Virus record (IMG/VR): IMGVR_UViG_3300003690_000685
Location: 1-21,060 of that record
Source of the DNA: a virus
Strand: one strand, 5' to 3'
DNA: 21,060 bases
The position numbers were made by a program, and so were the translations under genes. The notes below the pieces were generated by a model. That model saw only the letters and a program-made list of their open reading frames with translations, was not told where the DNA came from and did no database searches. Each line of letters begins with the position of its first letter. The first letter of the stretch is position 1. This document shows positions 200 to 4,018 of the stretch, piece after piece.

Positions 200-553
200 T
201 TAGTCGCCTGGATACTCGGTCTCGATGGCCTCAGTCAGTTCGTCTTCTATGCCGTGAGCCCATAGCTCAACGGCGCAGGACAGGTAGAACACGGCCATCC
301 CTGACCAAGACTCTCCGGCCTGCGGCTGAGGTAGCTCCCCGTAGTTGTCCTCGATGGCTTGCAGGACCGTGTCTCCGTGCTCGCTCATGGTCTGGCGAGC
401 ATCATAGTAGGTGACAGCGGGCATGTAGGCACCGCTGGCGCACCCGCCCTGGATGATGGACGCTACGGTGCATCCGGTGATGTCCTTATCGATGTAGACG
501 GGCACGTCCACAAGGCCAGAGACGGGTTGGTCAAAGTTCCAGAGGATGTCCAT
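200..553 (-). CDS. Hypothetical early phage protein, 117 aa
   Basis: Complete 117-aa frame on the minus strand, starting at the ATG at 553 behind a GGGAG ribosome binding site. It is acidic. Two segments look conserved: GGCASGAYMPAVTYYDA in the first half (about residues 36-52) and SWSGMAVFYLSCAVELW near residues 82-98. I have an impression of similar small proteins in the early regions of other phages, but I cannot name a domain family with confidence and assign no function. It has no signal peptide and no membrane segment. It is separated from the zinc-ribbon gene by 35 nt and from the 62-aa gene by a 79-nt gap containing two hairpins, so it sits in a leftward cluster with its own translation signal. 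Confidence 0.68.
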   Translation of the reverse strand: MDILWNFDQPVSGLVDVPVYIDKDITGCTVASIIQGGCASGAYMPAVTYYDARQTMSEHGDTVLQAIEDNYGELPQPQAGESWSGMAVFYLSCAVELWAHGIEDELTEAIETEYPGD

Positions 554-570
554 GGTTTCTCCCGGTTAGG
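554..570 (-). promoter_or_regulatory. Conserved 17-nt leader, copy 2
   Basis: Copy 2 of the leader described at 165-181, placed at the same distance (zero) from the start codon of the 117-aa gene. The one difference is T instead of C on the plus strand at 560, which changes GGGGG to GGGAG in the minus-strand ribosome binding site. Confidence 0.55.
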
Positions 571-577
571 TCGGTTT

Positions 578-620
578 GGGCACCGTGCCCCCACAGAGCC
601 CCACCGGAGTGGGGCGCTGT
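578..620 (-). other. Two perfect hairpins between early genes
   Basis: GGGCAC, one base, GTGCCC (578-590) is a perfect 6-bp inverted repeat. Next to it GCCCCAC, loop CGGA, GTGGGGC (598-615) is a perfect 7-bp stem, which extends after one mismatch through ACAG (593-596) and CTGT (617-620). Both follow the stop of the 62-aa gene and precede the leader of the 117-aa gene. There is no T-rich tail on either strand, so a simple intrinsic terminator is not well supported. An RNA-processing, stability or attenuation role is inference. Confidence 0.45.
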
Positions 621-632
621 AGGCGGAGGGTG

Positions 633-821
633 TTAGGCGAACATCTCCCGAGGATGTTTGACTAGGTAGGTCCCGTTGCGGCCAGGGAGTGCGCCGAATA
701 TCTCCTCGCCTCGCGCCTTTGCCAGGTATCCTTTCCGGGCGTTCCCGGTTACCTCTATCCCAGCCTCCCGTAGTGCTTTGACCATTGCTTGTACATGTTC
801 ATGGTCAAGTACGCTTGTCAT
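633..821 (-). CDS. Hypothetical small basic protein, 62 aa
   Basis: Minus-strand frame. The ATG at 821 is preferred because it lies 7-8 nt after a strong GGAGG; the same frame could be opened from 881, but that would translate through the hairpin at 839-869. The 62-aa product has an N-terminal amphipathic helix (HVQAMVKALREAG, residues 9-21) followed by a basic region with two small loops (NARKGYLAKAR and PGRNGTYLVKHPRE). It has no recognised domain, signal peptide or membrane segment. The basic surface would fit nucleic-acid binding, but that is inference. It is the second gene of the leftward early cluster after the 131-aa gene. Confidence 0.6.
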   Translation of the reverse strand: MTSVLDHEHVQAMVKALREAGIEVTGNARKGYLAKARGEEIFGALPGRNGTYLVKHPREMFA

Positions 822-838
822 ACTTATTACCTCCAGTG

Positions 839-869
839 AAGGGAGCCCGTCCCAATGACGGGAGCCCTT
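839..869 (-). promoter_or_regulatory. Hairpin just upstream of the 62-aa gene
   Basis: AAGGG and CCCTT flank CCCGTC, loop CCAAT, GACGGG; an AG/AG internal mismatch separates the two stem parts. On the minus strand the hairpin ends about 4 nt before the GGAGG of the 62-aa gene, so a formed hairpin would sit against the ribosome binding site. It could tune translation or mark an intercistronic processing site. No T tract follows. Confidence 0.45.
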
Positions 870-955
870 GTCTACAGGCAAGTGTGCGTCCCTGAATCCC
901 GCGCCTCATGGGCTGCTCGTTGGCATTAGCGGTCACCCCGTAGGGCTATGTAGGT

Positions 956-1351
956 CTAACGTTTTCGGCGTGGTCGCGAGCCTAACAAGGCGTCAAGGTT
1001 TGCATGATAGGTGTCACGGTTAGTTTTACGCTTTGAATCACGTACCATGGCCCGTTCGGCGCTGAAATTGTACAGTAGTGCGCCGTGAAGCTCCCTGCGA
1101 AGTCTGGACGCTCCCGCTTTGTCCCGTTTCCGTGGACGGGTAGGGTTGTCGTTGGGTCGCCGGGGCTGGCGACGTTCCCTTGGGGCTGGCGTTTCCGTCG
1201 AAGTAGACCCTGGAGCCTGAACATCTGCCGGTTGTGGCAGCGTCAAGATGTAGAACCTATCAGCTTCCCGTTGCCGGTCGCGTTGGGCCACAAGGGCCGC
1301 ATAGCGTTCGGTCTGGACGGTTGCGCCACCTTCCCCGTGGTAGTCGGGCAT
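956..1351 (-). CDS. Hypothetical basic protein, 131 aa
   Basis: Minus-strand frame starting at the ATG at 1351; an in-frame stop lies only eight codons upstream, so no earlier start is possible. The ribosome binding site is weak. The N-terminal part (residues 1-38) contains a charged helix. Residues 41-80 are rich in proline, threonine and arginine and probably disordered. The C-terminal part (80-131) is strongly basic with two helices and ends in RPRRKR. No family recognised. The charge suggests nucleic-acid association, which is inference. It is the first gene of the leftward cluster, adjacent to the divergent control region. A rival plus-strand frame overlaps it (1085-1390) but has no ribosome binding site and runs against its neighbours. 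Confidence 0.5.
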   Translation of the reverse strand: MPDYHGEGGATVQTERYAALVAQRDRQREADRFYILTLPQPADVQAPGSTSTETPAPRERRQPRRPNDNPTRPRKRDKAGASRLRRELHGALLYNFSAERAMVRDSKRKTNRDTYHANLDALLGSRPRRKR

Positions 1352-1850: not shown

Positions 1851-1960
1851 TGTTCAGTGTGGTATTTCTCTACACTGGCCGTTTGTTCAGTGTGGTATTT
1901 CTCCACATCCTGTACGGGTGTACAGTGTGGTATTTCTCTACATCCTGTACGGGTGTACAG
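1851..1960. repeat. Tandem 33-35 bp repeats with palindromic sites (operator or iteron array)
   Basis: Three copies of a 24-nt core TGT(T/A)CAGTGTGG...ACA start at 1851, 1884 and 1919, and a truncated fourth (TGTACAG) starts at 1954, giving spacings of 33, 35 and 35 bp. The second and third units are followed by CATCCTGTACGGG, which forms with the next unit the perfect palindrome CTGTAC-GGGT-GTACAG at 1910-1925 and again at 1945-1960. The regular spacing and twofold symmetry are typical of protein-binding arrays. The regulator gene starting at 2094 is the obvious candidate ligand; origin iterons for the nearby helicase are the alternative. Confidence 0.72.
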
Positions 1961-2093
1961 TACTGAAAGTAAGTTCAGAGATTGGCGAGCGGGGGGGTTA
2001 TACACAAAACCCACGCCAGAAAATCTGACCTTACCTCTTGACCATGCCGGTCAGGTATGGCATGTACAGGCTGGGCATCATGGAGGTGAGGCT

Positions 2094-2575: not shown

Positions 2576-2723
2576 AAAGGTTAAGGTAGGTGCGGGCGCG
2601 CGTGGGCGTTACGCGCACATGTCGCGTGCGTGCTTGTGCGCTCGGGGGGCCTATGGCCCAGCGGGCGTATCTTGGAGGTGCGCTCGCGAGGTGTTTGTTT
2701 TGTTTTTCACTTGGAGGTGAGTG
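2576..2723. other. GC-rich leader of the rightward operon, no gene
   Basis: No gene seen. From about 2589 to 2645 the sequence alternates purine and pyrimidine (GCGCGCGT, ACGCGCACATG, GCGTGCGTGC), a composition that favours Z-DNA. GGGCC-TAT-GGCCC is a perfect inverted repeat at 2647-2659. CTTGGAGGTG occurs twice, at 2671-2680 and 2710-2719; the second copy is the ribosome binding site of the helicase gene and the first has no usable start behind it. GTGCGCTCG is also duplicated (2636 and 2679). The segment probably carries the promoter or leader of the rightward genes. Confidence 0.4.
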
Positions 2724-3578
2724 ATGTATGGATCTATGCCTCAGTCCATTGAGGCTGAGAGGGACATACTTGGTGGTGTATTGTGCGACCCTTTGGTGAT
2801 GACTGAGGTTCGTCAAAGGGGTGTTGCGTGTTCGGACTTTTACATCAGGCGTAACGCTGACCTTTGGGGAGCAATGGTGTCTTTGTCTGACAAGGGCGTT
2901 CCTGTTGACCCCACCACCATCCAGGGCGAGATGAAGTCCTTGGGTACTTGGGAGGGTTTAGAGACGGCCAAGAGCATGGGCCGTGTTTTGGACAAGCCTG
3001 GGATTAGTTCTAACGTGGGTCATTACTGCGACATTTTGCTCAGAGAGAGTTTGAAGCGGGCAGTAGTGGTTGCTGGCGTGGATGCGTCTGAGTTGGCTCG
3101 TGAGGGCGATGGGATGTTGGCCATCTCATCAGCTACGGCACGTCTCAGGGAATTGGCTGAGAGGTCAGCGGGTGGTGTTGGGCTCGACGCTAAGAGTGGC
3201 ATCAACGGGTACCTTCACTACATCAGGCAGGTTCAGGACGGGACGATTGTTGATGGTCGGATACCTACTGGCCTTGGTCTTTTGGACGAGCGTTTGGGCG
3301 GTGGTCTCAAGCCTGGTTGGCAGGTTGTGGTGATGACTTGCTCTGGTCATGGCAAGACATCTTTTGCTGTGAACAACCTTGCTCTTAGCTGCGCGAGGTC
3401 TGGCAAGCCTGTTTTGGTTTGTTCATTAGAGATGAAGCCATCGGACATCTACGCCAGGATGATAGCTGCTGAGAGTGGTGTACCTGTGTGTGCCCATGAG
3501 AAGGTTGGTCTTCCTTCTTACGACATGGCTGAGATGGTTGGTGCTGGTGAGCCCATCAGCGGGTACCCCATCGGGTGA
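2724..3578 (+). CDS. dnaB: Replicative DnaB-type helicase, N-terminal part (split gene)
   Basis: Hexameric helicases of this family unwind DNA at the phage replication fork. The ATG at 2724 is 6 nt after GGAGG and preferred to the GTG at 2721. Residues 5-125 match the DnaB N-terminal domain (PQSIEAERDILGGVL, DFYIRRNADLWGAM). A linker follows. The ATPase core begins with PTGLGLLDERLGGGLKPG (181-198), a Walker A at 205-212 (TCSGHGKT, with T where A or G is usual) and LVCSLEM (231-237). The frame ends after SGYPIG at residue 284, in the middle of the RecA fold. The rest continues in the next frame, which overlaps by 4 nt (GTGA). Compared with the family, a short stretch normally containing paired acidic residues before the helix that begins SAIRG seems absent. 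Assembly error, deletion or natural splitting are all possible. Confidence 0.82.
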   Translation: MYGSMPQSIEAERDILGGVLCDPLVMTEVRQRGVACSDFYIRRNADLWGAMVSLSDKGVPVDPTTIQGEMKSLGTWEGLETAKSMGRVLDKPGISSNVGHYCDILLRESLKRAVVVAGVDASELAREGDGMLAISSATARLRELAERSAGGVGLDAKSGINGYLHYIRQVQDGTIVDGRIPTGLGLLDERLGGGLKPGWQVVVMTCSGHGKTSFAVNNLALSCARSGKPVLVCSLEMKPSDIYARMIAAESGVPVCAHEKVGLPSYDMAEMVGAGEPISGYPIG

Positions 3579-4018
3579 GCGCGATACGCGGTGCTGCTGA
3601 GGCGATGAAGTTGAAGTACGGTTCTTTGGGGATGGTTGTGGTTGACTACATCCAGTTGATGAAGTCAGCGGGAGGCAGAAGGGAGACGACGACTGAGGAG
3701 GACATCTCTGGTAACAGTAAGGCATTGAAGCATCTAGCTGTTGAGTTGGAGTGTGTGACTGTTGTTCTGTCTCAGCCTGTGCTTTCGGCCAAGCGGGAGC
3801 GTAGGCGTCCTACGATTCAACAGGCCAAGGGTTCTGGTAGCATTGAGGACGACTGTGACGTGGCTTTGGTGCCTTGGCAGCCTGGTTTGGTTGACGACGC
3901 CATCCACCGGAACAAGGCTGAGATGGGTATGGACAAGTTCAGGGATGGCAACAGGCATGGTTTGAACGATGAGGAGATACGGTGGAGTGGCAAGCGGATG
4001 AGGTTTGAGGCCATATGA
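3575..4018 (+). CDS. dnaB: Replicative DnaB-type helicase, C-terminal part (split gene)
   Basis: 147-aa frame beginning with a GTG that overlaps the stop of the N-terminal part by 4 nt. It supplies the rest of the RecA-like core: helix SAIRGAAEAMKLKYG, Walker B GMVVVDYIQLM (19-29, D24), the sensor VTVVLSQ (61-67), the loop region GSGSIEDDCDVALVPW (86-101), the basic segment DKFRDGNRHG expected to carry an arginine finger, and the end strand RWSGKRMRFE. Together the two parts make 431 residues, slightly below a full DnaB. No separate ribosome binding site is visible, so if it is made alone it would depend on translational coupling. The same overlap style occurs between the following genes, so the junction alone does not prove an error. 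Confidence 0.8.
   Translation: MSAIRGAAEAMKLKYGSLGMVVVDYIQLMKSAGGRRETTTEEDISGNSKALKHLAVELECVTVVLSQPVLSAKRERRRPTIQQAKGSGSIEDDCDVALVPWQPGLVDDAIHRNKAEMGMDKFRDGNRHGLNDEEIRWSGKRMRFEAI

Follow-up and report, generated by a model that had tools for sequence, protein, structure and literature searches.

LexA-controlled phages with tandem boxes are already known, as in GIL01 (PMC4551915, PMC6182141), a Bacillus tectivirus without a dedicated repressor in which host LexA acts on tandem boxes (PMC6182141). Described LexA boxes include CTGT-N8-ACAG in gamma- and betaproteobacteria, RGTACNNNDGTWCB in cyanobacteria and CTRHAMRYBYGTTCAG in Myxococcus xanthus (PMC9705874, PMC2248561). Repeated dyads also occur at replication origins: the iterons of phage lambda are dyads that bind dimers, and plasmid iterons generally lie in helical phase (PMC5043065).

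The dyad array described here lies in the window, which is a whole 21-kb virus record (21,060 bp; IMG/VR IMGVR_UViG_3300003690_000685). The dyad that we call A is a 16-bp dyad like the LexA boxes above and shares with them the outer CTG..CAG, the inner GTAC or GAAC bases and a purine/pyrimidine centre, but in the window five putative boxes occupy one phage intergenic region and alternate with a second dyad. The locus resembles GIL01 in that no dedicated CI-type repressor was found, tandem LexA-type boxes stand in control regions, and a small phage DNA-binding protein is present. In contrast to GIL01, where the boxes are GAAC-N4-GTTC and lie within promoters, the window phage is tailed and has CTGWAC-type boxes ~60 bp upstream of an inferred promoter. 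The early region of lambda and P22 (cro, OL/OR, ori) is similar: a small Cro-type gene heads a rightward operon that continues toward replication genes, a leftward operon diverges from it, and modules are exchanged between relatives.

Architecture and setting of the array

The array lies in an intergenic region (1352-2093) between leftward open reading frames (200-1351, minus strand) and a rightward operon on the plus strand. This operon opens with a gene with a GTG start (2094-2294) encoding a 66-aa Cro/C1-type helix-turn-helix (HTH) protein (HTH_3, E=8e-16), for which the PDB holds no homologue. The rightward genes encode the HTH protein, DnaB helicase, Holliday junction resolvase, transglycosylase, TerL, major capsid protein (MCP) and P22-type portal. 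The gene for the DnaB-type replicative helicase (2721-4018, plus strand) is split into two open reading frames (2721-3578 and 3575-4018). Relatives have a single open frame with ~9 extra residues at the joint, and the break at 3560-3580 may be either a sequencing error or a real frameshift.

The initial annotation had described repeats starting at 1851, 1884, 1919 and 1954, and these stand, with spacings of 33, 35 and 35 bp and a TRF score of 159 (35 bp x 3.2 copies). The perfect palindrome CTGTACGGGTGTACAG does occur at 1910-1925 and again 35 bp further on at 1945-1960, the sole such pair in the 21,060-bp record, and the HTH gene starts 134 bp past the second copy, as had been noted. That reading overlooked the imperfect A dyads at 1842, 1875 and 1963, the alternating dyad B and the likeness to SOS boxes. 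Two palindromes alternate in the array, A with 16 bp and five copies and B with 17 bp and three copies, and their order is A, B, A, B, A, B, A, then TA and a final A. The A consensus is CTGWAC-RNNY-GTWCAG, with 6-bp arms and a 4-bp centre, and the B consensus is TGTGG-N7-CYACA, which in the window reads TGTGG-TATTTCT-CYACA. The first A site (1842-1857, GTATACATCTGTTCAG) is an imperfect 6-4-6 dyad, as is the second (1875-1890, CTGGCCGTTTGTTCAG), and the third and fourth (1910-1925 and 1945-1960) are the two copies of the perfect palindrome. The fifth (1963-1978, CTGAAAGTAAGTTCAG) stands in an 18-bp tandem register with the fourth. The first and third B sites (1858-1874 and 1926-1942) both read TGTGGTATTTCTCTACA, and the second (1891-1907, TGTGGTATTTCTCCACA) is a perfect 5-7-5 dyad. 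A third kind of dyad, GTATGGCACCATAC, adjoins the array at 1828-1841.

The array is more than chance. The 699 bp that precede the HTH gene contain eight perfect dyads against 1.86 expected (0 of 100 shuffles), five A sites with at most two mismatches to CTGWACNNNNGTWCAG (0.07 expected) and three B sites (0.01 expected), and each of the last two counts was reached in 0 of 300 shuffles. The perfect A pattern has zero occurrences in 2.38 Mb of other phage DNA. The plus strand of the array also folds better than shuffled sequence (z -3.35), as it would if the array acted in processing or attenuation as transcribed RNA or single-stranded DNA hairpins, not as duplex binding sites. However, such folding is a property of any dyad array, a search of Rfam returned nothing, and the dyads are dispersed in one relative (L052) and differently spaced in another (L240), so that no common fold is kept. 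We therefore consider a role as hairpins very improbable. A tRNA search also returned nothing.

Relatives, the phage HTH protein and the early region

Scans with single proteins (helicase, MCP, HTH), a scan for the exact B repeat and blastn of phage records yielded no close kin. The virus family was recovered by two alignment scans, first for distant portals and then for the family TerL, which revealed a large uncultured family with the gene order of the window. No GTDB genome matched any member of this family.

A motif search in related phages, proposed in the initial annotation, found A ahead of the same HTH gene in two relatives, one of which also has B. In L052, whose portal is 70% and HTH protein 36-41% identical to those of the window, four A sites (944, 996, 1286 and 1304) and one B site (1249, TGTGGATTATTTCTACA) precede the HTH gene, and a counterpart of the third dyad, GTATGGTGCCATAT, stands directly ahead of the B site. 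The other relative, L240 (L130 read further upstream), has six A-like sites in an exact 18-bp tandem, 160-250 bp before its HTH gene. The 18-bp register, consisting of 16 bp and a TA linker, is common to the fourth and fifth A sites of the window and the sites at 1286 and 1304 of L052. Within the closest subclade, A is thus found in three members and B in two; the L240 sites have poor right arms, the L052 array is dispersed, and most relatives are without A. Where the window has its A/B array, L136 and L138 have an array of CTAC-N6-GTAG dyads, with seven and four perfect copies, respectively. These arrays lie upstream of HTH-dnaB at 5797-6116 in L136 and 2144-2320 in L138, and no such array was found in L143, L146, L148, L149, L141, L183 or L241.

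As judged from these comparisons, the early control and replication region is subject to mosaic exchange between relatives. The TerL proteins of L138 and L143, and of L052 and L132, are 98-99% identical, yet each pair is unrelated to the left of dnaB or from within it.

The A dyads, the B dyads or both could instead be operators of the phage's own 66-aa Cro/C1-type HTH protein, which would then regulate its own gene and, like Cro, turn off leftward as well as rightward early transcription. XRE-type dimers bind dyads of 14-18 bp. In all three A carriers the A sites lie ~130-260 bp upstream of the HTH gene, and the HTH proteins of the carriers share the recognition helix Q-x-x-x-S-[RK], with a basic residue at one position. 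The CTAC-N6-GTAG array of L136 and L138 occupies the same place, which would fit a joint change of operator and regulator, and it is absent from L143, whose TerL is 99% and HTH protein 74% identical to those of L138. However, A is common to the window, L052 and L240 despite HTH proteins that are 33-40% identical. Because the HTH proteins of carriers resemble one another no more than do those of relatives lacking A, the A dyad does not clearly follow the HTH protein. L148 has Q-x-x-x-S-K but no array. The window array lies clear of the inferred HTH promoter, and unrelated phages carry such an array with no HTH neighbour. The difference between L138 and L143 spans the entire left side and is thus not specific to array and HTH gene; co-evolution of the two, considered for L138/L143 and L052/L132, was set aside as not decisive because everything on the left is exchanged. 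On balance, we regard the HTH protein as an unlikely, though serious, candidate for the main binder of the array. The B dyad, at a guess, may be its site.

Comparison by eye with relatives places a promoter of the HTH gene, TTGACC-N17-CATGTA, at 2038-2066 (plus strand). The pattern TTGACC-N17-TAnnnn recurs before the HTH gene in relatives with the same geometry, according to the same by-eye alignment, whereas a sigma-70 consensus scan of the region found nothing above chance and missed this promoter. The array ends ~60 bp upstream of the inferred -35 element, and no leftward promoter overlapping the array was identified. Just upstream of the promoter lies a block of ~40 bp kept in relatives (1993-2032, plus strand; TACMCAAAA..CNGCGGCC..AAATTTGAA). 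Between the inferred -35 and -10 elements is a separate dyad, CATGCC-N10-GGCATG (2043-2064), a candidate site for autoregulation by the HTH protein. Dyads are also present at the matching position in L052 (CCATGC-N6-GCATGG) and, with other sequences, in L132 and L148. Between the HTH gene and dnaB, the window contains a long C-rich/G-rich hairpin with a CCCCC-TTTA-GGGGG core (2526-2576). This hairpin is also found, with differing arms, in L052, L132, L130, L146, L149 and L183 (fold z -3.2 to -4.6), and L136, L138 and L143 have a different long hairpin in the same interval. No T-run follows the hairpin, which makes it at most a candidate terminator or attenuator.

The initial annotation had offered two roles for the array, the operator of a phage switch or an origin with iterons. 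The first survives in the sense of a regulatory array in an early control region, with A and B recurring in relatives, but is not supported in the sense of lysogeny. Among ten relatives of 32-40 kb, whose records may be incomplete, none has a tyrosine integrase (PF00589, the one integrase type covered) or a CI/LexA-type Peptidase_S24 repressor, and eight have a recognisable HTH_3 protein, mostly a single one. Unlike lambda and P22, the relatives therefore offer no CI/S24 partner or integrase, which makes a lysogeny switch with two repressors of the lambda type unlikely, and we rejected it. The array also lies off the HTH promoter: only the separate dyad at 2043-2064 overlaps that promoter in the manner of a lambda-type operator on the cro promoter.

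As part of an origin, the array would supply iterons beside the helicase gene, with an initiator binding the dyads as lambda O does at ori-lambda. The likeness to the lambda O iterons lies in repeated dyads near replication genes: dnaB is adjacent, the dyad repeats are regular, and array, HTH gene and the left part of dnaB are swapped together between close relatives. A DnaA-box-like 9-mer, TTATACACA (1998-2006), lies inside the conserved block 20 bp from the array, and no other consensus DnaA box occurs in the genome. This box made an origin attractive at first, but relatives do not keep it (TTGTACCCA in L052, TGGTACACA in L132), and the idea was dropped for that reason. No initiator was recognised among the genes scanned, although the HTH protein could be one. 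The spacings of 33, 35 and 18 bp are out of helical phase, and there is no strongly A+T-rich unwinding element, with a minimum of ~44-45% GC per 100 bp and a GC content of ~0.45 at the array. Spacing and A+T content thus fit lambda O iterons poorly, the iteron proposal gained no positive support, and we consider an origin improbable.

Likeness of the A dyads to LexA boxes

The A dyads may form a multi-box operator through which a LexA-type repressor, probably that of the host, acts in the early control region. This reading is tentative, and we give it slightly less than an even chance. The initial annotation knew of no described operator with this sequence, which was wrong in one respect, since the palindrome conforms to CTGT-N8-ACAG and differs from the myxobacterial LexA box by a single mismatch. 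The third and fourth A sites match CTGT-N8-ACAG with no mismatch and are its only two matches in the genome. Against CTRHAMRYBYGTTCAG, a consensus that may differ from that of the host, the first A site has one mismatch and all five have at most two. Allowing two mismatches, the record matches this consensus at seven sites, of which five lie in the array (counted by strand, 10 matches against 1.4 expected). LexA consensuses are degenerate. Positions 7 and 10 of the dyad, whose bases were not used in finding A sites, are R in 14 of 14 and Y in 13 of 14 distinct A sites from three family members, a bias like that of LexA boxes; because tandem copies are not independent, this bias is supportive and not a test. 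A phage-encoded LexA DNA-binding domain is absent from the window and from the nine family members tested, and a LexA-type repressor would therefore most likely be the host's.

Two unrelated phages, L245 and L269, also show the 16+2-bp tandem register, in each case between divergently transcribed genes, although in L269 the sequence read stops before the right side is complete. The boxes in both are close to the E. coli consensus, and neither phage has an HTH_3 protein above the cut-off or an S24 protein. In L245 (5613-5682), four near-consensus E. coli-type SOS boxes follow one another in the 18-bp tandem, which includes CTGTATAAATATACAG-TG-CTGTACAGATATACAG. The tandem pattern has six matches in GTDB genomes, three of them inside genes and seemingly due to chance. 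One match, CTGAACACGCGTTCAG-TA-CTGTAC in a Deltaproteobacteria MAG (L280), directly precedes an imuA-like gene (a weak match, 20.9 bits) and an error-prone DNA polymerase gene (1330 bits, cut-off 939). A cassette of imuA and an error-prone polymerase is a classic LexA target. Viral contigs gave 38 matches, most of which look like single chance matches. In one phage contig, L253, tandem A-type boxes (1361-1400) stand ahead of a gene. The contig also encodes, at 2645-2869, a 75-aa protein with a lone LexA DNA-binding domain (PF01726) that recalls GIL01 gp6.

Several findings count against LexA as the binder: the poor right arms in L240, the dispersed array in L052, the distance of ~60 bp between the array and the inferred HTH promoter, the failure to identify a leftward promoter overlapping the array, the absence of A from most relatives, and the bacterial cassette being a single case among six matches. 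Four to six tandem boxes also exceeds, to our knowledge, the known LexA cases. We nonetheless rank host LexA first and the phage HTH protein second, because of the consensus match, the register in unrelated phages, the bacterial cassette and the divergence of the HTH proteins among A carriers.

Proposed control of early genes

We infer LexA binding, the promoters controlled and the roles of B and the HTH protein as follows. The phage is uncultured and apparently has no integrase, and the array would serve as a compound operator in the control region from which its early genes diverge. The five A dyads would be boxes for a LexA-type SOS repressor, most likely host LexA, and when occupied they would keep early transcription low, for the HTH-dnaB operon, for the divergent leftward genes, or for both. 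DNA damage would lead to self-cleavage of LexA and release early transcription. The small HTH protein, with the B dyad perhaps as its own site, would adjust repression locally. A broader version, in which repressor-less unrelated phages with 18-bp SOS-box arrays in a divergent early region use or titrate host LexA and B here lets the HTH protein compete or help, strikes us as unlikely on present evidence.

Two aspects appear to be new: the alternation of five A-type boxes with a second dyad in a family of tailed phages that apparently lack an integrase, and an 18-bp tandem register recurring in unrelated phages. No description of such arrays was found in the open literature, although this is weak evidence that none exists.

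Should the array be bound by the HTH protein and not by LexA, the region would be a compact element of autoregulation that diverges from one close relative to the next. Should A be a box for host LexA, a family without recognisable lysogeny genes would couple early expression and replication to host DNA damage, as GIL01 does, and the use of LexA by phages would extend to a large uncultured tailed-phage family. The 16+2-bp tandem boxes would then be a searchable sequence signature, and because LexA boxes are taxon-specific, they would also aid host prediction. The likeness of the array to a LexA site suggests, without proving, that this phage ties its early genes to the stress state of its host.
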